From positions 1-33,343 of the IMG/VR virus record IMGVR_UViG_3300042465_006798: a DNA stretch of 33,343 nucleotides; one strand, 5' to 3'. This document shows, piece after piece, positions 2,472-27,710 of this stretch (position 1 is its first letter; the number at the start of each line of letters is the position of its first letter). The notes below the pieces were generated by a model, which ran no database searches, was not told the DNA's origin, and was given only the letters and a program-made list of their open reading frames with translations. The stretch comes from a virus. A program made the position numbers and the translations under genes.

Positions 2472-3221
2472 TTAGCCAACCATATCTGTTACCGGTAGAG
2501 AATAAGAACGAATCAAATCCTCGTCCAGTGCTTTTAATTCATCCTCTGCTTCATCGTAGATTTTCTGCCCATTGAACGTAACGCCGCCTGGCATTTGTAA
2601 ACCTTCAAACTTCTTCAGATTATTACCCCATTGTTTTTTAATCATTGCGGTAGCATATTTCTTGAGCCAACGATCATTCCATACATCGGTATAAGTGTCT
2701 GGATCTAGTAGACGGTAGCCTTCAATTATGATATACTCATCTTTAAGAATCTTTTCACCCCATGCCATATCGATATAAAGTTTATTGATATGACGATTGA
2801 AGCGTAAGCCTTGCTTGCCTACGAACATCTCTTCGGCAAGTGCTACGTTTTGCAAAGCCATGTAGTATGATGCAAACGGACCGTAGTTAAAAGCGAATAA
2901 ATCGTTCAGCGCCAACTGATAGCGAATGTTGAAAAGATTGTTGGTAGAGTATGAATTACCAATGTCAAGAATATTGATAACTGAAATGACGTTCTCAGGT
3001 ATATCTAAATACTTGTTTGCAATGTCAGTTTCGGTTACTTTGTGTGCTAGGTAAACTTTTTCGGTGCCATCGTAGTGATAGTCGTGGTAAACTTGAAGTG
3101 CGGCTTCTACGCAATCTTCAACTTGTAAATCATCTACGTTAATTTCTAGCACTGGCGCACCAAGTTGACGGAGGCAGTAGTCTTTAAATTCTTCTCTGGT
3201 TGCTGGTTTGTGCGTACTCAT
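2472..3221 (-). CDS. 13: Neck protein (gp13-like)
   Basis: A 249-aa gp13-family head-completion/neck protein. Family features include REEFKDYCLRQLGAPVLEIN at residues 10-29, then DLQVEDCVEAALQVYHDYHY, and PENVISVINILDI further in. In T4 it forms a ring at the portal vertex that receives the tail. An in-frame ATG exists at 3251, but it would lie at or before the start of a transcript from the CATAAATA late promoter at 3253-3260. The ATG at 3221 has a good Shine-Dalgarno (AGGGG about 7 bases upstream) and gives the usual family N terminus MSTHKPATREEF. It is the first gene of the operon gp13-14-15-16-nuclease-17. Confidence 0.9.
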   Translation of the reverse strand: MSTHKPATREEFKDYCLRQLGAPVLEINVDDLQVEDCVEAALQVYHDYHYDGTEKVYLAHKVTETDIANKYLDIPENVISVINILDIGNSYSTNNLFNIRYQLALNDLFAFNYGPFASYYMALQNVALAEEMFVGKQGLRFNRHINKLYIDMAWGEKILKDEYIIIEGYRLLDPDTYTDVWNDRWLKKYATAMIKKQWGNNLKKFEGLQMPGGVTFNGQKIYDEAEDELKALDEDLIRSYSLPVTDMVG

Positions 3222-3252
3222 TTGTGCCCCTATAAGGTTAATTTCTACCATC

Positions 3253-3260
3253 TATTTATG
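3253..3260 (-). promoter_or_regulatory. T4-type late promoter element (CATAAATA) for the gp13-gp17 operon
   Basis: CATAAATA on the minus strand fits the NATAAATA late consensus of marine T4-like phages. A start about 6-7 bases downstream gives a roughly 25-base leader before the gp13 ATG at 3221, with the AGGGG ribosome site inside it. Confidence 0.7.
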
Positions 3261-3295
3261 CTTTTTTGAATCTACATAGTGCTTCGGCGGGCCTA

Positions 3296-3301
3296 TATAA
3301 T
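3296..3301 (+). promoter_or_regulatory. Possible sigma-70-type -10 box (TATAAT) for the oxygenase island
   Basis: A perfect TATAAT lies 20 bases before the first oxygenase ATG, within the 70-base divergent gap. No convincing -35 hexamer sits at 16-18 bases (TTGAAT at 3266-3271 is about 24 bases away), so it would need activation or a non-canonical -35. No NATAAATA late element is present on this strand in the gap. Confidence 0.35.
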
Positions 3302-3321
3302 TAAGAGAAAAGGATTTTGAT

Positions 3322-3942
3322 ATGAACCTTAAATTTTATGAACATCTTGGTCTTCCTATCGCCGTGGTAGACAATTTTTATGAAGAGCAAACATGCAAAA
3401 AAATTTGGCAAGAACTATGTTTTTTAAACAATGAACCACAAAAACTTCTAGGTCCAGAAAAAACTGGATCTGCTACTGATGATAAAACTGGAGAGTATTT
3501 AAAGCGCAATCGAGGAATATTTTTAGATCAGGCATATAAAGATCGATCATTGTCAAACATTCTAATTGCCAATAGAAAGATTTTTTATAAAGATTTTGTT
3601 AATATTTTGAGTGACAATCACTATTTTTTTAAATATTTGGAAATTTCAAATGTTGATACAACTTTGGTTCAATATTATGAAAATAATGATTATTATAAAT
3701 TGCATAGTGATCACGCAACTTTAACTGCAATATTTTGGATGTACGACTCGCCTAAAAAATTTGTTGGAGGAAATTTTCAATTTGAAAATGGCCCTGCCAT
3801 AGAGTGTTTTACAAATAGAATGTTAATTTTTCCATCCATACTAAAACATGAAGTGGAAGAAACTAAAATTGTAACTGAAGAATTGAAAAATCAAAATTAC
3901 GGAAGATTTTCAATTTCTCAATTTATATCGAGAAACATATAG
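3322..3942 (+). CDS. 2-oxoglutarate/Fe(II)-dependent oxygenase-like protein, island gene 1
   Basis: A 206-aa protein with the double-stranded beta-helix signature of prolyl-4-hydroxylase-like oxygenases. The iron ligands are H128-S-D130 and distal H176 (LKHEVEE), with R195 in GRFSIS as likely 2-oxoglutarate anchor. YYENNDYYKLHSDHATLTAI and FVGGNFQF are typical of the fold. Such enzymes hydroxylate proteins, small molecules or nucleobases; the substrate cannot be read from sequence. The start follows a good AGAAAAGGA ribosome site. It is the first gene of five on the plus strand, opposite to the flanking structural genes, and the DNA is visibly AT-richer than those genes, which suggests separate acquisition. 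Confidence 0.82.
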   Translation: MNLKFYEHLGLPIAVVDNFYEEQTCKKIWQELCFLNNEPQKLLGPEKTGSATDDKTGEYLKRNRGIFLDQAYKDRSLSNILIANRKIFYKDFVNILSDNHYFFKYLEISNVDTTLVQYYENNDYYKLHSDHATLTAIFWMYDSPKKFVGGNFQFENGPAIECFTNRMLIFPSILKHEVEETKIVTEELKNQNYGRFSISQFISRNI

Positions 3943-3952
3943 GATAAGAATT

Positions 3953-4585
3953 ATGACTTTTAAAATTAATGGGCTTTATATTGAACCAAGACAACCTGAT
4001 GTGACACTAGGGGGATGTATAGAAATTTATGAAAATGCTTGGCCTGACCCTAGAAAAACAATAGATCAATTAGAACAGTTGGTGCTTAATCATTATACTT
4101 CTGGTGTATATTGGCAAAAAGCAGAAACTTTTGGTCAAGGCGCTCTTCAGAACGTAAGAACAAATAAATTATTGCCGCTTACACACTTGTGTGAAGTAAC
4201 TGGTAATAAAGTTTTGCACAACATAAACAATATATTTTATACTCTTCTATTGTCTACCACTAATACATACTGCTCAAAATTTGACATTCACGAAAGTTTT
4301 TTTCATGAGGGGTATAATGTTTTAAAATATACTTCAGGAGAAGAGTACAAACCTCACTATGATGGCGGAACATCGTCTGGCCGAAGTATTTCGGCAATTT
4401 GTTACTTGAACGATGATTATGTTGGGGGTGAATTAGAATTTGTAAATTTTGGAATTAAAATTAAACCACAACCAGGAATGATGATTTTGTTTCCTTCTAA
4501 CTATGCATATCGTCATGTTGCACATCCGATTACAGAGGGAACAAAATATGCAATTGTTACTTGGATAAGAGATAGGCAGGTATAA
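3953..4585 (+). CDS. 2-oxoglutarate/Fe(II)-dependent oxygenase (prolyl 4-hydroxylase-like), island gene 2
   Basis: A 210-aa protein and the most canonical of the five. LKYTSGEEYKPHYDGG gives H135-Y-D137; the strands SISAICYLND and VGGELEF follow, then PGMMILFPS. The distal part YRHVAHPITEGTKYAIVTW gives H188 and K198 as the 2-oxoglutarate-binding basic residue, as Lys is in collagen-type prolyl hydroxylases. The N-terminal 100 residues probably form a helical cap. A weak AGGATAAGA ribosome site precedes the ATG, and the gene starts 10 bases after gene 1. Likely role is hydroxylation of a peptide or small-molecule substrate; no partner is identifiable. Confidence 0.88.
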   Translation: MTFKINGLYIEPRQPDVTLGGCIEIYENAWPDPRKTIDQLEQLVLNHYTSGVYWQKAETFGQGALQNVRTNKLLPLTHLCEVTGNKVLHNINNIFYTLLLSTTNTYCSKFDIHESFFHEGYNVLKYTSGEEYKPHYDGGTSSGRSISAICYLNDDYVGGELEFVNFGIKIKPQPGMMILFPSNYAYRHVAHPITEGTKYAIVTWIRDRQV

Positions 4586-4586
4586 A

Positions 4587-5207
4587 ATGGACGCTTTAAA
4601 TGAACATAAATTTGCAAAAAATGGATACTGTTTAGTTGAAAATGCAATTTCACTTGAATTGAGAGATTTTGTAACTCAGTATGCATTATTTGATGAGATG
4701 CAAAATTTTAATGGAAATGGAGACGGTCAAACTCCAAATGCACATTTTAGATATGCTGATCCTGCTATGGAATCTTTGTTAATTCATCTTCATAAAACTA
4801 TGGAAGAAAATACTGGATTACTTTTATTTCCAACATATTCATATCATAGAGTTTATAGACCAGGAGATGAATTAAAAGAACATAGAGACAGACCATCATG
4901 TGAAATTTCAGCAACAATATGCTTCAATTATAGTTATGATGATTCTAAATTTTCTTGGCCTATATTCATGAATAATTACGAAGCAGTTCAAAAGCCCGGT
5001 GATATGATAATTTATAGAGGGTGTGATTTACCACACTGGAGAAATAAATTTAATATTGAAGAAGACGTTTGGCAAGTTCAAGGATTTTTTCATTATGTAG
5101 ACGCAAACGGCCCTCACGCAGAGTGGAAGTTTGATAAAAGAAATTCAATTGGTGAAAAAGATTTGAGAAAACCTTCTAGTATTAAACCTTACATACAATT
5201 TGTTTAA
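4587..5207 (+). CDS. 2-oxoglutarate/Fe(II)-dependent oxygenase-like protein, island gene 3
   Basis: A 206-aa protein of a different oxygenase branch. YRPGDELKEHRDRPSCEISA gives H99-R-D101; KPGDMIIYRGCDLPHWRN gives distal H150. YHRVY before the first motif and VQGFFHYVDANG after the second are characteristic of a marine phage subgroup. The last ~30 residues are a polar tail outside the barrel. The ATG lies one base after the stop of gene 2, so the two are probably translationally coupled. The 2-oxoglutarate anchor is less clear than in genes 1 and 2. Substrate unknown. Confidence 0.8.
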   Translation: MDALNEHKFAKNGYCLVENAISLELRDFVTQYALFDEMQNFNGNGDGQTPNAHFRYADPAMESLLIHLHKTMEENTGLLLFPTYSYHRVYRPGDELKEHRDRPSCEISATICFNYSYDDSKFSWPIFMNNYEAVQKPGDMIIYRGCDLPHWRNKFNIEEDVWQVQGFFHYVDANGPHAEWKFDKRNSIGEKDLRKPSSIKPYIQFV

Positions 5208-5208
5208 C

Positions 5209-5850
5209 ATGGTAGAAATTAAAAATTACATTCAGAATTTAAATTTTGAATTCAGTTCTCAATTACCTTATATATTAAAAGGAAATCTTTCTAATGAATT
5301 GTTTGATGAATTAAATTATTTTTTTCGTGAATGTGAGAGTATTAAAAATCATCCTTTAGGATTTTTAAGAAACCACATAAATGCAGGAAAAAACAGGTAT
5401 CAAACAAGTATACCTAAAGGTTTGTTAGAAAAATCTTTTTTGATGCCATTTTTAATTCACTTAGGAGAATTTTATATCTCTGAAAAATTACAAATTGATA
5501 TTTCATATTTAACACATCACAGAATTGTTAGAATGCGGCAATTTCCGGATCATTATGATCATTATGACTTTTGGGTAAATTTTTCTCAACTTGAAGATTC
5601 AAATAATATTCATGATCATGCTGGAACATTATCAGGAATTTTATATTTTACCGACACAAAGTTGCCTGTAAAATTTTATTATAATGATGTTGTGTTTGTT
5701 CATGAAGGTAAAAAGGGAGAAGTTTTTTTGTTTCCATCAAACTTATTACATTCTGTAGATTATAACACCATTGAAAATAATAGAATATCATTTTCTTTCA
5801 ATTTATTTTGTACAGATAATGAAATTCATGATAAACTTCAAGTAAAATAA
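5209..5850 (+). CDS. Putative 2-oxoglutarate/Fe(II) oxygenase (HxH type), island gene 4
   Basis: A 213-aa protein resembling the phage/bacterial putative-2OG-oxygenase group with a His-x-His proximal motif: NNIHDHAGTLSGILYFTD (H135, D136, H137), FLFPSNLLHSVDYN (H181), then R192 in NRISFSFNLF as probable co-substrate anchor. Having HDH where HxD is usual makes the exact metal ligands uncertain. I start at ATG 5209, one base after the gene 3 stop, rather than at the overlapping TTG at 5200. There is no clear Shine-Dalgarno, so translation probably depends on coupling. The gene is the AT-richest part of the island by eye. Confidence 0.75.
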   Translation: MVEIKNYIQNLNFEFSSQLPYILKGNLSNELFDELNYFFRECESIKNHPLGFLRNHINAGKNRYQTSIPKGLLEKSFLMPFLIHLGEFYISEKLQIDISYLTHHRIVRMRQFPDHYDHYDFWVNFSQLEDSNNIHDHAGTLSGILYFTDTKLPVKFYYNDVVFVHEGKKGEVFLFPSNLLHSVDYNTIENNRISFSFNLFCTDNEIHDKLQVK

Positions 5851-5851
5851 T

Positions 5852-6367
5852 ATGTTTAATGATTTTTTGATTATCGATAACATTTTTGAAAACCCCAACA
5901 AAATAGTAAAGTTTTCAAAAGAAATAGATTACTATCATTCGTCAAGCACAAATAAACCTGAAGGAAATTGGGTAGGATTACGTTCAAATAGACTTTACGA
6001 AATAGACCAGAAATTTTTTAATGAAACTTTTAATGAAATTTTTGCAAAATGCTTCTCACATTTTCAAGTGAATGAGTTTTCGTATAGAGTAAACTCATAC
6101 TTTCACATATTGCCGTCAGAATTTAGTTTCAATGAAAGTTGGATTCATACTGACAAAACTTATTTTTTAGCCGGTGTGGTTTATTTAAATGCAACTCCAC
6201 CAAAAGAAAGCGGCACAATTCTCATTTTGAATAATGAGATTTGTGCCGTTGAGAATAAATTTAATCGATTAGTGCTTTATAATTCTAGTATAAAACATGC
6301 GCCTCAAAATTCTTTTGATTCTAGATTAACTCTAACTTTTTTTGTTGAAGAATTGCTTATTAAGTGA
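5852..6367 (+). CDS. Short 2-oxoglutarate/Fe(II) oxygenase-like protein, island gene 5
   Basis: A 171-aa protein with the same ligand geometry in a compact form: SWIHTDKTYFLAGVVYLN (H99-T-D101), SSIKHAPQN (H149) and R158 in DSRLTLTFFVEE. The N terminus MFNDFLIIDNIFENPNKIVK resembles the opening of short DUF6445-type oxygenase-like proteins, which is a tentative placement. It starts one base after the gene 4 stop. Its last eight bases overlap the convergent gene on the minus strand, so the two 3' ends meet with no room for a separate terminator. Function beyond the fold prediction is unknown. Confidence 0.68.
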   Translation: MFNDFLIIDNIFENPNKIVKFSKEIDYYHSSSTNKPEGNWVGLRSNRLYEIDQKFFNETFNEIFAKCFSHFQVNEFSYRVNSYFHILPSEFSFNESWIHTDKTYFLAGVVYLNATPPKESGTILILNNEICAVENKFNRLVLYNSSIKHAPQNSFDSRLTLTFFVEELLIK

Positions 6368-6792: not shown

Positions 6793-7782
6793 TTAAGGAA
6801 ATAGATAACGGACAACTACAATTCCTGGACCACCATTGCCGCCAGCGTGTTGGAATGTTGGTCCAGGTGATCCTGCGCCGCCTCCACCTCCGCCGGTGTT
6901 TGTTTGTCCTGGCACTCCAAACAGCGTACTCACTGGATTTACTGGTCCGGGCCATGGTGCGCCGTTTGGTCCAGCGCCAGCACCTCCGCCTCCACTACCA
7001 CCAAAGCCGCCACGGTAACTATCTGGAGAGTTCACACCACCGCCACCGCCACCGGCGTAAGTTACAGGCGATCCCGAAATAGATGAAGCAAGTCCGTTAC
7101 CACCATAGCCAGCATTTGCAGGATTATTGGTAGCCGGCTGTCCTGCTTGAGAAGCGCCGCCGCCTCCAGCGCCCCTAAAATCGGCCGGACCGGAGGTATA
7201 CCCACCTCCTGGATTTCCCGAGCCAGTTGAACCTGGAGGATTTCCTGGAGAAGTAGGTTGGGTGCCATCTCCGGCAACTTGACTCCTAGGATTATTCACC
7301 ATTGCACCGCCGCCTGATCCTCCATCACCAGCGCCATTGGCACCGTAAGAGCCGCCGTTGCCTCCACCTAGAGCAGTAAATGTTGAGAATGTTGAGTTTT
7401 GACCATTCTGTGAGTTGGTTAAAGACTCGCCGCTGCCGCCTTGGGCCAACGCTCCATTACCGCCGTTACCTACTGTTACTGGATAACTCGAAGTGCCATC
7501 TAAACTAAATGCAGATGAAGTAATCATACCGCCTGCGCCGGCACCTGAGCCTACCCAGACACCGCCGCCGCCACCTCCTGCTACAGCAAGAACTTCTGTG
7601 CTAATTGGAAGACCGTATGAACCTAATGCTAATGTTCCTGGACCGGTAAATGTGTGAATGCGATAACCACCGGCTGTGGTTATTGTTCCTCCGGTAATCA
7701 GAGCCTTGTTGGCGGCGGCCGCACCTCGGCCACCTCTTCCAACCGCACTATAATTTCCGCGAACGCTACTAATAAATGGCAT
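6793..7782 (-). CDS. Glycine-rich tail fiber/adhesin protein
   Basis: A 329-aa protein. After a short N-terminal region (1-30), GGYRIHTFTGPGTL at about 36-50 matches the opening of phage glycine-rich domains. Most of the rest is runs of Gly (GGGGGG, GGGNGGSYGANGAGDGGSGG) interspersed with Asn, Ser and Pro. It ends GGPGIVVVRYLFP, the typical closing strand of this domain. By analogy with glycine-rich receptor-binding adhesins of T-even phages (gp38 type, polyglycine-II sandwich), it may sit at a fiber tip and contact the host surface. An AGGGGAA ribosome site precedes ATG 7782. It lies 18 bases downstream of the long fiber gene. Confidence 0.8.
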   Translation of the reverse strand: MPFISSVRGNYSAVGRGGRGAAAANKALITGGTITTAGGYRIHTFTGPGTLALGSYGLPISTEVLAVAGGGGGGVWVGSGAGAGGMITSSAFSLDGTSSYPVTVGNGGNGALAQGGSGESLTNSQNGQNSTFSTFTALGGGNGGSYGANGAGDGGSGGGAMVNNPRSQVAGDGTQPTSPGNPPGSTGSGNPGGGYTSGPADFRGAGGGGASQAGQPATNNPANAGYGGNGLASSISGSPVTYAGGGGGGVNSPDSYRGGFGGSGGGGAGAGPNGAPWPGPVNPVSTLFGVPGQTNTGGGGGGAGSPGPTFQHAGGNGGPGIVVVRYLFP

Positions 7783-7800: not shown

Positions 7801-10122
7801 TTATAGAACTGTGTTCGCGGATACACTACCTGCTACAGTAAATGCACTACTTCTACGAAGAATCGTGAATGTGAAAATGTCTGTTTTACTTGCAGTTGGT
7901 GTGTACGAAGAATTGCCACCGACAAAGTTGACAAGCGTTGATGTGCCGTTAATGCTGATTGCGTTACCGCTTGGGCGGCGTGCTGTAGCACCTTGTGGCA
8001 GAATCAATGTAACGCTTGTTACACGACCATTTGTTGTTGGTACGTTTGTCAATGCAAGTGTAAAGTCTCCGCTTGTTGGTGCAGTTGTTGCATAGAAGAT
8101 GTTACCATTGTTGTAGTCTACGTTATAAGTGTTTGTAGATACTGCTACGTCTGTAACGCCTTCAACAATTTCGTTAGCAATGAGTGAGCCGCCGACTGAA
8201 ACATCACCGCTGAATGTTGCGGTGCTTGTTACGTCAAGTGTACTTGCAAATGTGACCGCACCGTTTGCGCGAAGTGTGCTGTTACCAAAGATTGCACCTG
8301 AGACACCAAGACCGCCAGTGACAACTGCCGCACCTGTAGTATGTGAACTAGCCGCGGTACCTGATGTAACTGTTACTGCACCGCTTGCGGCGAGTGTTGT
8401 AAATGCACCAGATGATGGTGTAACTGAACCAATTGGTGTGCTTTGAATTGCACCAGCAATTACGTTGCCTGCAATACCTGCACCACCGTTGACAATCAAT
8501 GCACCAGTTGAAACAGATGTAGATGGGGTTGTTGAGTCTGTGCGAATTGCACCACCAGCCCACACACCACCCGCAATACCTGCACCGCCTGCAACTCTGA
8601 GTGAGCCTGTAGTACTGCTTGAAGTTGCAGTAGTATTTGAGGTGTACAATTCACCAATTTGTACTGAACCATAATTCAATCCTGCTTGACCAAAGTTTAC
8701 TGTGTTAGCAGGTCTTGTTGATGCATCTAAGAATAGTTTGAAGACGCCATCAGATTGATCGCGAACAAGACCAAAGTATTTTGGAGCGCCTTGTTGATAT
8801 TGACCAATAACACCAATGTCAAGTGTGTCTGAAGCATTGCCGTTTGCAAGGAACAACAATGAGTTTGCAACAGCAAGTGTGTCTGTTGAAACTGTGTTAC
8901 CTGCACCAAGTAGAGAAATAGAACCTGTAATGGTTACGTTACCACCCACGTTCATGTTACCAACAACACCCATACCACCTGCGACTGTCAACGCACCAGT
9001 TGTGGTTGACGTAGACTGAGTTGGAACTTCAATGTGAATACGAACACCAGGATCAATAGTCATCTGAGTATTGTTTGCAGGATCATCAAAGCCATTTGCT
9101 GAGAAGATAATTCTGTTGGTTGTACCGTTACCACCAGTACCAATTACCAAATCACCATTCTTTGTAGAACCTGCTGGTGCTTGATAAAGAATGTATGCGT
9201 CTTCGCCTTTTGTAACAGCAAACGCACCTTGATCGTAGTTTGTTGCATTAATACCAATTGATACCCAACCAGTTTCGGTATTACCTGCGTTGTTGATTGC
9301 AATCAATTCAGCATATGCGTTTGCACTATTACTGCGGTTAACAATAGCAATATCGTGCGCGCCATCGCTTTCAGCGACCGCTGTAACCAAGTGAATGTCT
9401 TGATTTTCTTCTTTATCGATAATCCAATCTGCCGCACCACCAACGTGTAAGTCGGATGCGGCATTTACTGTACCTGTGACATTTACATTAGCACCAACTT
9501 GTAAATTGGTTGTAACATTCATGTTTGCGGCATTAGCCCATGCAGTTGCAGTAATGTTACCACTTGCGCTGAGAGAGTCTGTACTTGAGTTATAAGTCAA
9601 GCCGCTGTCATCGCTAACAACACCACCAGTACCAGCAATTAGAACGCGACCAGAAGTAAGAGCAGATAGTTTAATTTCAGTATCAACTGTAACATTGGCC
9701 GCAAGCAAGGCATTGTTTGCAGTTACATAGCGCAGTTCAGCATCATCGGAGAGAAGACCAGAAGCACCAGCAAAGGCAACGCGCCCAGAGGTAAGATTAT
9801 TTGCAGTAAGAGATGTAACACGAACGGCGCCATTCGCATCAACTGGACCATCAACAGTCAGTCGATTTGTTGTTGTATTGTAGGTCAATCCGGCGTCATC
9901 GTCAACCAAAGCACCGGTGCCAGATACAGGCGCCCTACTTACAAGGACTCTTCCGCCACCTACATCTAAGTCAACAATTTGTGCTGTGTTTGCATAAATG
10001 TTTGCAACACCAGTGTTTAAAGTAGTGTTTGCCGCTTGAAGCGTGGAAATGTCATTCGCCGCATCATTATATGCGGTACGAAATTCATTGAAGGTATTCG
10101 CTAATTGAATTTGGGCTGCCAT
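7801..10122 (-). CDS. Repeat-built tail fiber protein (773 aa)
   Basis: The N-terminal 30 residues contain a short coiled coil (FNEFRTAYNDAANDISTLQA) likely to trimerise or attach the protein. Then come three units of the form SGRVLIAGTGGVVSDDSGLTY (about residues 52-175). Later come at least four units of the form STTTGALTVAGGMGVVGNMNVG (about 370-650), which occur widely in marine myovirus fibers. The segment TPIGSVTPSSGAFTTLAASG precedes the last of these. The C-terminal 110 residues (DFTLALTNVPTTNGRVTSVT onward) look like a compact beta-rich tip. The predicted role is an elongated trimeric fiber for host recognition. A purine-rich AGAGAGAGAA site precedes the ATG. Confidence 0.85.
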   Translation of the reverse strand: MAAQIQLANTFNEFRTAYNDAANDISTLQAANTTLNTGVANIYANTAQIVDLDVGGGRVLVSRAPVSGTGALVDDDAGLTYNTTTNRLTVDGPVDANGAVRVTSLTANNLTSGRVAFAGASGLLSDDAELRYVTANNALLAANVTVDTEIKLSALTSGRVLIAGTGGVVSDDSGLTYNSSTDSLSASGNITATAWANAANMNVTTNLQVGANVNVTGTVNAASDLHVGGAADWIIDKEENQDIHLVTAVAESDGAHDIAIVNRSNSANAYAELIAINNAGNTETGWVSIGINATNYDQGAFAVTKGEDAYILYQAPAGSTKNGDLVIGTGGNGTTNRIIFSANGFDDPANNTQMTIDPGVRIHIEVPTQSTSTTTGALTVAGGMGVVGNMNVGGNVTITGSISLLGAGNTVSTDTLAVANSLLFLANGNASDTLDIGVIGQYQQGAPKYFGLVRDQSDGVFKLFLDASTRPANTVNFGQAGLNYGSVQIGELYTSNTTATSSSTTGSLRVAGGAGIAGGVWAGGAIRTDSTTPSTSVSTGALIVNGGAGIAGNVIAGAIQSTPIGSVTPSSGAFTTLAASGAVTVTSGTAASSHTTGAAVVTGGLGVSGAIFGNSTLRANGAVTFASTLDVTSTATFSGDVSVGGSLIANEIVEGVTDVAVSTNTYNVDYNNGNIFYATTAPTSGDFTLALTNVPTTNGRVTSVTLILPQGATARRPSGNAISINGTSTLVNFVGGNSSYTPTASKTDIFTFTILRRSSAFTVAGSVSANTVL

Positions 10123-26529: not shown

Positions 26530-26760
26530 TTACCTCATACTTTTAAAATACTGAATGCGTCTTTCTTGTTTCGCTACCCAATCGTCAGATGGCTTACCCT
26601 CACCTTTATAATATGCAAGAGGTTTACCTGTATTCTTTGAAACTAACGCCCACTTACCATCTACTTGTTTGAGTACTTCAACAAGTTCTGGACCATACAC
26701 ATCCTCTTCCCACTCTTCTTGTGTTGCGGGTGTGCTTATAAACTGTTTAAATGTTTTCAT
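26530..26760 (-). CDS. Conserved small phage protein (76 aa), MKTFKQF start
   Basis: Function unknown. It starts MKTFKQFISTPATQEEWEED, a type of opening common to several small proteins of marine T4-like phages. It ends with a motif I recognise from unrelated phage ORFs: WALVSKNTGKPLAYYKGEGK, then PSDDWVAKQERRIQYFKSM. The second motif seems to be a small basic module attached to different proteins. The start overlaps the stop of the kinase-like gene (ATGA), and the hub gene begins three bases after its end, so it belongs to the same translation unit. Its role in tail assembly is not known. Confidence 0.72.
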   Translation of the reverse strand: MKTFKQFISTPATQEEWEEDVYGPELVEVLKQVDGKWALVSKNTGKPLAYYKGEGKPSDDWVAKQERRIQYFKSMR

Positions 26761-27710
26761 AGATCGTCTAGTTCTTTCGTATCTAGTGAATCTGGTGGTA
26801 CGTTATCTACAATCCAATTGTATAGTTCTTTACGAACGCCGGCATCGTTTGTCATTGACTTACCTGGCTTCTTTAATGTAAGATACATGAAGTTGCCGAC
26901 AACTTTATTGCCTTTAATGTCTTTATAATGTTGACCAGTTTTAGGATCAACAATGAACATTGTATTCTGTGGATTGTTTAGTACCACATAAACACCACCA
27001 TCTACTTCTTTTGGAAAACCTTTTTTGACTAATGCAAATACAGTTTGTGCCGCGCCTCTGTGTGTCTTTAGTAAAATATCTTCTGGCACTACTCGCGCAC
27101 GTTTCTTGTTGTTTTGAATTGCAATCTCATAATTAGTTAGCACCCAAGTCACATGAATGTTTCGAGCTGCATAACCTGCTTTGAGCAACTTGGGAATGTA
27201 ACCTGTCATATCATCCATGTCTGCAAAAGTGGAGTCAATGAGAATGTTAGGCAATGTATTTTGTGCCGCGCCATCAAGCAATAGATCAAGTGTTTTATTT
27301 TTTACACCGCTTGCACGAACCATAACGTGTAGTGCGTAAACGTGTTCTGGTGTCTTGAGGTTTAAATCTTTAAGAGAGTAACCTTTATCGATAACATTCT
27401 TTTGAATCAAGTCCATATCACGTTCGCTAATGTTATTACTGTATTTTTTCAGTAATGCATCCATGGTGAATTTACCTAGATCATCAAGTTTTTGAAATGC
27501 AATCTTTAATTCATCTACATCGCGAATCTTAAAGTCTTCGCCTTGCATAAAATTGCTAATGGCAAAACCTTTACCCGAACCAGCGCCGCCAGCAAGGAAT
27601 ACAACTTGCCCATACTTTGCGCCATTGTTGTAAAGAATGAGTTTTTCTTCAAGAGGTACTCTTGACTCATATTCTTTTTTATAAACGTATTCTGAGAATG
27701 ATAGTTTCAT
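26757..27710 (-). CDS. P-loop kinase-like protein (zeta-toxin / polynucleotide-kinase type fold)
   Basis: A 317-aa protein with a Walker A at residues 41-48 (GGAGSGKG) after strand VVFLA. It is followed by FKIRDVDELK (acidic residues where zeta-toxin and kinase families have a substrate-side Asp). NILIDSTFADMDDM near residue 155 is a possible Walker B-like strand, and NKKRARVVPEDILLKTHRGA near 200 is a basic lid. This arrangement fits zeta-toxin/AAA_33-type kinases that phosphorylate small molecules or nucleic acid ends. The last 100 residues are a separate region of unknown role. It sits between gp27 and a small protein in the hub operon, with a 2-base gap to gp27, an unexpected place for an enzyme. 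Confidence 0.78.
   Translation of the reverse strand: MKLSFSEYVYKKEYESRVPLEEKLILYNNGAKYGQVVFLAGGAGSGKGFAISNFMQGEDFKIRDVDELKIAFQKLDDLGKFTMDALLKKYSNNISERDMDLIQKNVIDKGYSLKDLNLKTPEHVYALHVMVRASGVKNKTLDLLLDGAAQNTLPNILIDSTFADMDDMTGYIPKLLKAGYAARNIHVTWVLTNYEIAIQNNKKRARVVPEDILLKTHRGAAQTVFALVKKGFPKEVDGGVYVVLNNPQNTMFIVDPKTGQHYKDIKGNKVVGNFMYLTLKKPGKSMTNDAGVRKELYNWIVDNVPPDSLDTKELDDL

Follow-up and report, generated by a model that had tools for sequence, protein, structure and literature searches.

Tandem sets of genes for Fe(II)/2-oxoglutarate (2OG) oxygenases are already known from T4-like marine phages. Ten 2OG genes have been reported in S-CREM1 (PMC9964418) and 24 in S-SCSM1 (PMC9602691). In Syn9 and S-CREM1, fiber genes, Gly-rich genes, halogenase(s), DUF6065 and 8–9 oxygenases are arranged in a single string. 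In the Pelagibacter phage HTVC008M, a PF21722 gene is followed by a group of oxygenases on the opposite strand, by gp13-gp14-gp15-TerS, and then by an oxygenase and a halogenase. What many of these cyanophage and pelagiphage enzymes do has been a question from the earliest genomes onwards, and they are usually assigned to host metabolism. Here, we analyzed an island of five such genes (g1 to g5, positions 3322–6367) in the IMG/VR virus contig IMGVR_UViG_3300042465_006798, whose 33,343 bases are hereafter called the window. Its TerS-, gp15-, gp14- and gp13-like genes and a baseplate protein nearest to that of HTVC008M (37% identity) identify it by sequence as a T4-like myovirus, i.e. a marine virus of bacteria. 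We tentatively propose that the five enzymes tailor an adhesin whose gene is exchanged with theirs as part of one segment of the phage genome.

The HTVC008M island (gp067-gp072) occupies the same site in the same orientation as that of the window. Its set is different, with four annotated oxygenases plus a g3 homolog named ‘ferrochelatase’, and its halogenase is located after TerS. The clusters of the T4-like cyanophages (Syn9 gp45-gp54, S-CREM1 ORF72-80, and S-SCSM1) likewise contain small 2OG oxygenases of varied types in a row, among them homologs of g3 and g5. However, they have more oxygenases, these lie on the strand of the fiber genes, and halogenases are present, whereas none is found within the 33 kb of the window. 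They also differ in u6, the gene convergent with the island in the window, as the u6 profile detects no u6 in the clusters of Syn9, S-CREM1 and HTVC008M. An earlier note on this DNA, made from the sequence alone, had described one or a few such oxygenases as common in marine myoviruses. The numbers in Syn9, S-CREM1 and S-SCSM1 refute the idea that five in a row are unusual in themselves.

The five open reading frames (ORFs) are adjacent on the plus strand and separated by 10, 1, 1 and 1 base. For g4, 213 residues are counted from the ATG at 5209, the automatic ORF caller beginning at the TTG at 5200. The GC content of each gene is 25–34%, versus 35–40% for the neck and TerS genes and 45–55% for the fiber and Gly-rich genes. 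The island runs opposite to both flanking structural units, being divergent from gp13 and convergent with u6, and the stops of g5 and u6 overlap by 8 bp (6360–6367). This layout is as the earlier note had described it: adjacent, 1–10 bases apart, AT-richer and opposite to its flanks. As that note had also claimed, the iron-ligand pattern HxD/H...H can be read in all five genes and a distal Arg/Lys motif in most of them (g1, g2, g4 and g5), g3 lacking it at the usual place. The profile searches and structure check that it suggested gave Pfam matches above cut-off for PF13640 on g1 (E 3e-6) and g2 (8e-17), PF13759 on g4 (2e-11) and DUF6445 on g5 (2e-6, with PF13640 at 3e-4, under its cut-off). 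The PHROGs are concordant (2OG family 61 for g1 and g2, 2954 for g3, 81 for g4, 1644 for g5). By motif together with a profile match or, for g3, a predicted fold, all five are thus different Fe(II)/2OG oxygenases. Recent tandem duplication is ruled out by pairwise identities of 19–28% with shuffle Z values of at most 3.7, in line with the different sub-branches noted before. Homologs of g1 are 45% identical in Synechococcus phage ACG-2014b (tblastn) and 47% in locus L006 of our collection, and those of g5 are 26–31% identical (tblastn). Single-protein scans with g1 and g5 gave no confirmed viral relatives by that method.

The g3 protein is the only one without a Pfam match, none being found at E≤10, and a sequence search of the PDB with the g3 profile returned nothing useful. 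Its AlphaFold2 model (predicted local distance difference test score 91) gave 570 PDB matches at E≤0.001. The best were the prolyl-4-hydroxylase (P4H) of Pseudomonas putida (4j25, Z 17.3, 166 residues, 2.9 Å) and human PHD2 (Z ~16.8), and the predicted fold is prolyl-4-hydroxylase/PHD2-like. It shares with these enzymes the fold and the conserved HxD...H ligands, but it is only ~14% identical and its distal Arg/Lys is off the usual place. In the HRD...H motif of g3, H99, D101 and H150 are invariant across 30 relatives. So are R88, R152 and Q165, candidates for replacing the distal Arg/Lys. The P. putida enzyme, the nearest solved fold, was solved with a protein partner, EF-Tu (4j25, and 4iw3 with Z 16.8).

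To avoid circularity, related loci were gathered with a u6 profile scan, with no selection for oxygenases. Among 58 non-redundant u6 loci, 47 hold 2OG or flavin-halogenase genes (237 of 964 genes), versus 0/80 baseplate gp6 loci (0/750 genes) and 16/80 gp13 loci, counted with hidden Markov models built from these very families, so that control loci could hide other 2OG types. A convergent enzyme run accompanies 34 of 77 u6 copies, and 192 of the 207 genes of those runs belong to five recurrent families: 134 2OG oxygenases (3 of them halogenase-fused), 25 further halogenases, 22 DUF6065 proteins, 9 members of phrog_17480 and 2 SGNH-like proteins. A Gly-rich gene lies at most three genes upstream in 54 of 77 distinct u6 copies, and directly before u6 in 43 of 76 (8.2 expected). 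Within this setting, 28 u6-linked islands contain g2 or g3 and 24 of them contain both, confirming that such genes occur together in relatives. Only these two form a conserved core. The membership is otherwise modular and does not correspond to a fixed five-step pathway. The same picture emerged from scans with g2, which found 18 close relatives (50–60% identity) in the setting of the window: the islands are flanked by u6-like genes on one side or both, Gly-rich genes are present, and g2 is accompanied by g3 and a variable set of further oxygenases. Long ORFs in the islands of relatives encode flavin-dependent halogenases (PF04820), and further members are DUF6065/phrog_7084 proteins, the phrog_17480 family and carbamoyltransferases. 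VirX1-type enzymes, named after the flavin-dependent halogenase of cyanophage Syn10, occur in these sister islands and in the Syn9 string. The published work on VirX1 deals with small-molecule substrates and not with a fiber cassette (PMC8407142; reference list of PMC10452541).

A scan with gp13 found six contigs (L253-L258) in which gp13-gp16 are 93–100% identical to those of the window where covered, L253 ending at the gp13 edge and L255 spanning only gp13 and part of gp14. In L254, L256, L257 and L258, none of the fiber, Gly-rich, u6 and island genes of the window is present, save a 34%-identical g3 in L254-L256. These latter differ in their fiber end, encode an oxygenase of the PF13759 type, and carry on the opposite strand a run in which that g3 is joined by a PF13640-type gene, DUF6065 and a gene with a methyltransferase domain. 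Oxygenases are absent from L257, where three Gly-rich genes are found, and the three oxygenases of L258 lie on the other strand. Hence, the whole fiber-adhesin-island segment is replaced between near-identical phages; the block swap raised as a check in the earlier note does occur, and it includes the fiber and adhesin genes. Conversely, g2 and g3 (50–61% identity) and u6 (40–51%) are shared with loci in which the gp13-like protein is only 23–25% identical. In other relatives (the more distant L274 and L312, and L254), the same site carries genes for GT25, a DXD glycosyltransferase, a sulfotransferase, an APS-kinase-like protein, radical SAM proteins or methyltransferases. One edge of the segment falls in the 70 bp before gp13 (3252–3321), where a conserved ATAAATAG element marks the point at which cassette contents change. 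This element resembles a T4-type late promoter and may act as such. On the island-facing side, the window and L254-L256 have a GGCCTATATAAT-like element in common despite their differing islands, and it could likewise have a promoter role.

The unit is wider than five genes, as the convergent u6 and the Gly-rich fiber protein belong with it. The latter matches PF21722 (E 3e-16). No Pfam, NCBIfam or PHROG match was found for u6 of the window. A tblastn search gave no match in cultured phages, the only relatives of u6 are uncharacterized viral proteins, and no PDB fold scored above Z 4.5, which does not show that its fold is new. Its family has invariant W, E, Y, P and YG residues (window copy and copies in L090-L166). 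In T-even phages, gp38-type adhesins are Gly-rich receptor-binding tips encoded at the end of the fiber operon. The Gly-rich gene of the window likewise follows a fiber gene; we liken the two by gene position and Gly-richness, the family match being to PF21722 only. To our knowledge, gp38 has no accompanying tailoring enzymes. A paper on gp38 of phage PP01 (PMC12892980) is a lead on such adhesins.

We can propose that the island forms one half, the tailoring one, of a receptor-binding cassette that can be swapped. The five oxygenases, probably active and expressed as one divergent unit, would hydroxylate or otherwise oxidize side chains of the phage’s own Gly-rich adhesin, encoded just beyond u6, before its assembly into the virion. 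Other phages have, next to an adhesin of their own, different sets made of hydroxylases, flavin-dependent halogenases, DUF6065, carbamoyltransferase or glycosyl-/sulfotransferases, and this would vary the chemistry of the host-touching surface. Several observations point in this direction: the linkage of the enzymes to u6 loci, with u6 directly after the Gly-rich gene; the concentration of the runs in five families; the block replacement in L254, L256, L257 and L258, together with the sharing of g2, g3 and u6 across distant gp13; the glycosyl-/sulfotransferase-type sets at the same site; the comparable arrangements in HTVC008M, Syn9 and S-CREM1; the fusion of island members with each other (halogenase with g3, g3 with PF13640); and the protein partner of the P. 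putida P4H. That the set is swapped together with an attachment protein suggests modification of the latter, although we hold this interpretation with a little less than even confidence. Slightly more tentative still is its extension to marine T4-like phages at large, in which exchangeable cassettes of hydroxylases, halogenases, carbamoyl-, glycosyl- and sulfotransferases would mature a Gly-rich adhesin and diversify host-binding surfaces chemically beyond sequence. The earlier note had imagined a stepwise modification of a shared target. The distinct enzymes, their co-occurrence and the swap with an adhesin agree with a shared target, but the modular membership, with g2 and g3 as sole core, does not fit the stepwise part.

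Several points weigh against adhesin tailoring, besides the origin of the counting models mentioned above. Linkage does not make a substrate, and the adhesin is only proposed as the target. In 11 of the 58 u6-Gly-rich loci, no such enzyme lies within reach. Trp and Tyr are not enriched in Gly-rich proteins near halogenase-bearing islands; Tyr and His are slightly more frequent beside islands, which may reflect phylogeny. Genes of the g3 type also occur in bacterial chromosomes and in other phage contexts, and only 27 of 79 such loci have a second 2OG gene in the vicinity. The bacterial neighbors of g3 in these loci include no single recurring partner and give no hint of a substrate. Finally, the corresponding gap of phage Mosig holds genes for heme oxygenase and a PcyA-like protein.

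This last observation and the g3-type genes outside fiber contexts, for example near an ORF resembling nonribosomal peptide synthetases or between NrdA- and NrdB-like ORFs (by eye), would fit a metabolic role. The enzymes would then merely adjoin the fibers and act on small molecules of the host or virus, whether by drawing down 2OG and affecting NtcA signalling, in the chemistry of nucleotides or DNA repair, or on glycans or secondary metabolites of the host. Modulation of 2OG and possibly DNA repair are the published view for T4-like cyanophages (PMC3037559, PMC2984593), and reprogramming of host metabolism has also been published (PMC9602691). Nevertheless, we consider this explanation unlikely, though the strongest of the alternatives. 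A 2OG sink would need a single enzyme, not a series of unrelated enzymes whose conserved sites differ, the runs consist almost purely of few tailoring families, the same-site alternatives are glycosyl- and sulfotransferases, and the exchange accompanies adhesin genes. No AlkB family is listed by Pfam for the five genes and Tet_JBP on g2 reaches only E 0.09, under its cut-off, a missing profile match that does not exclude a nucleic-acid substrate. The earlier note had included a nucleotide among the conceivable targets; we found no positive evidence for a nucleotide or DNA target here.

It could also be that the gap between gp13 and the fiber genes is a recombination hot spot collecting oxygenase sets that have no adhesin link and are, for several of them, near-neutral. 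The contents indeed vary widely behind near-identical gp13, from none in L257 to a changed orientation in L258, and the ATAAATAG element could be a crossover point. Such hitch-hiking appears rather improbable to us, since random insertion would not predict so few families, the enzymes are accompanied by u6 and the Gly-rich gene, the g2-g3 pair is retained, the 30 g3 homologs fully keep their Fe ligands, and members are fused. That the target is u6, another virion protein (collar, baseplate, whisker), or a host receptor or its glycan is very improbable: u6 is the closest and most regular neighbor (median 0.5 kb to the nearest 2OG/halogenase gene, versus 2.3 kb for Gly-rich genes) and crosses phage lineages together with g2/g3, but u6 and the Gly-rich gene also occur enzyme-free, which fits a fiber accessory better than a substrate, and the Syn9, S-CREM1 and HTVC008M clusters do without a profile-detectable u6.

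As far as we found, the anatomy of this cassette, i.e. an enzyme run, u6 and a Gly-rich adhesin exchanged together with alternative chemistries at the same site, is undescribed. Our literature search covered few subscription journals and found no paper proposing that phage halogenases or 2OG enzymes modify fibers or adhesins; this is weak evidence that none exists. The link to a co-exchanged adhesin makes the role of these oxygenases concretely and cheaply testable, by checking whether particular Gly-rich proteins are shifted in mass in cultured phages. If adhesin tailoring is true, the flavin halogenases of phages also gain a place.

The results on g3 bear on a family named ‘ferrochelatase’ in phages. 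The HxDRPS...HWR site is kept in g3 homologs of cultured phages (Mosig, HTVC008M, Syn9, S-CREM1 and others), and the iron ligands in five of six other aligned sequences of the family, the S-T4 ORF lacking the first part. Six ‘ferrochelatase’-family proteins of cultured phages, HTVC023P and HTVC033P among them, matched no Pfam family at E≤10. Because of this lack of a Pfam match, the 2OG-oxygenase fold predicted for g3 and the conserved HxD...H site, the name is unsupported, and ferrochelatase identity of g3 was rejected. On present evidence from sequences and a model, PHROG 2954/3531 are a further family of Fe/2OG oxygenases. Misnamed cultured examples are Syn9 gp54, HTVC008M gp068, HTVC023P gp67 and Mosig_00059. 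Ferrochelatase auxiliary metabolic genes have been reported alongside 2OG oxygenases, and the family has been used in ecological comparisons (PMC11561400); the two co-occurring functions may be one enzyme class. Two other names look wrong, PHROG 1644 ‘minor coat protein’ and PHROG 274 ‘DNA endonuclease V’, as both contain 2OG oxygenases (window 5852–6367, L003 11934–12449, L155 9544–10131).

Table 1. Features of the island and of its surroundings in the window.
Feature	Position	Strand	Remarks
gp13-like head-tail adaptor	2472–3251	-	Conserved flank, retained upon replacement of the segment
Divergent intergenic edge of the swapped segment	3252–3321	.	ATAAATAG on the minus strand before gp13, GGGCCTATATAATTA before g1
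g1, Fe(II)/2OG oxygenase, PF13640 type, 206 aa	3322–3942	+	Pfam, PHROGs, HSD...H...R
g2, Fe(II)/2OG oxygenase, PF13640/PKHD-like, 210 aa	3953–4585	+	Core member of the islands; HYD...H...K
g3, Fe(II)/2OG oxygenase, predicted prolyl-hydroxylase fold, phrog_2954 ‘ferrochelatase’ family, 206 aa, core member	4587–5207	+	
g4, Fe(II)/2OG oxygenase, PF13759 type, 213 aa	5209–5850	+	HDH...H...R
g5, Fe(II)/2OG oxygenase, DUF6445/phrog_1644 type, 171 aa	5852–6367	+	HTD...H...R
u6, unnamed family, 141 aa	6360–6785	-	Follows Gly-rich fiber genes; convergent with the island
Gly-rich (PF21722) fiber/adhesin protein	6793–7782	-	Ends GPGIVVVRYLFP; proposed substrate
Fiber-like protein, repeated SxTGAL/GGxGIxG motifs	7801–10122	-	In the segment replaced among close relatives; named by eye, no PHROG match

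Genes of the g3 type were met in several other arrangements. Fusions of a flavin-dependent halogenase with a g3-type oxygenase, ~650 aa long, are present in four contigs (L016 9844–11820, L164 10194–12167, L165 5396–7357 and L166 2303–4228), and g3 and PF13640 domains are fused in proteins of ~370 aa of freshwater phages (L047-L079). A carbamoyltransferase gene adjoins g3 and a PF13640-type oxygenase in L095 (1671–3335) and L261 (1–1259), a possible pairing of hydroxylation with subsequent carbamoylation. In L246, L248 and L249, binned as bacteria but probably phage DNA, a g3-type gene lies by eye between NrdA- and NrdB-like ORFs. In gammaproteobacterial metagenome-assembled genomes, a g3 gene and the gene for a g2-type oxygenase are divergently oriented (L176 6529–8657; L219, L221, L222, L227), and the g2-type protein of L176 and L221 carries N-terminal repeats resembling Sel1, by eye.

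The gene sets that stand in place of oxygenases at the gp13 edge are located at 4001–7953 in L274 and 1350–7327 in L312. When the first 25 kb of the window were compared with the phage collection for nearly identical DNA, no match was found, and a scan for sigma-70-type promoters was uninformative (23 sites versus 20 expected). Within the baseplate gene block of the window, positions 26757–27710 encode a P-loop protein of PHROG 5268, a family of unknown function.

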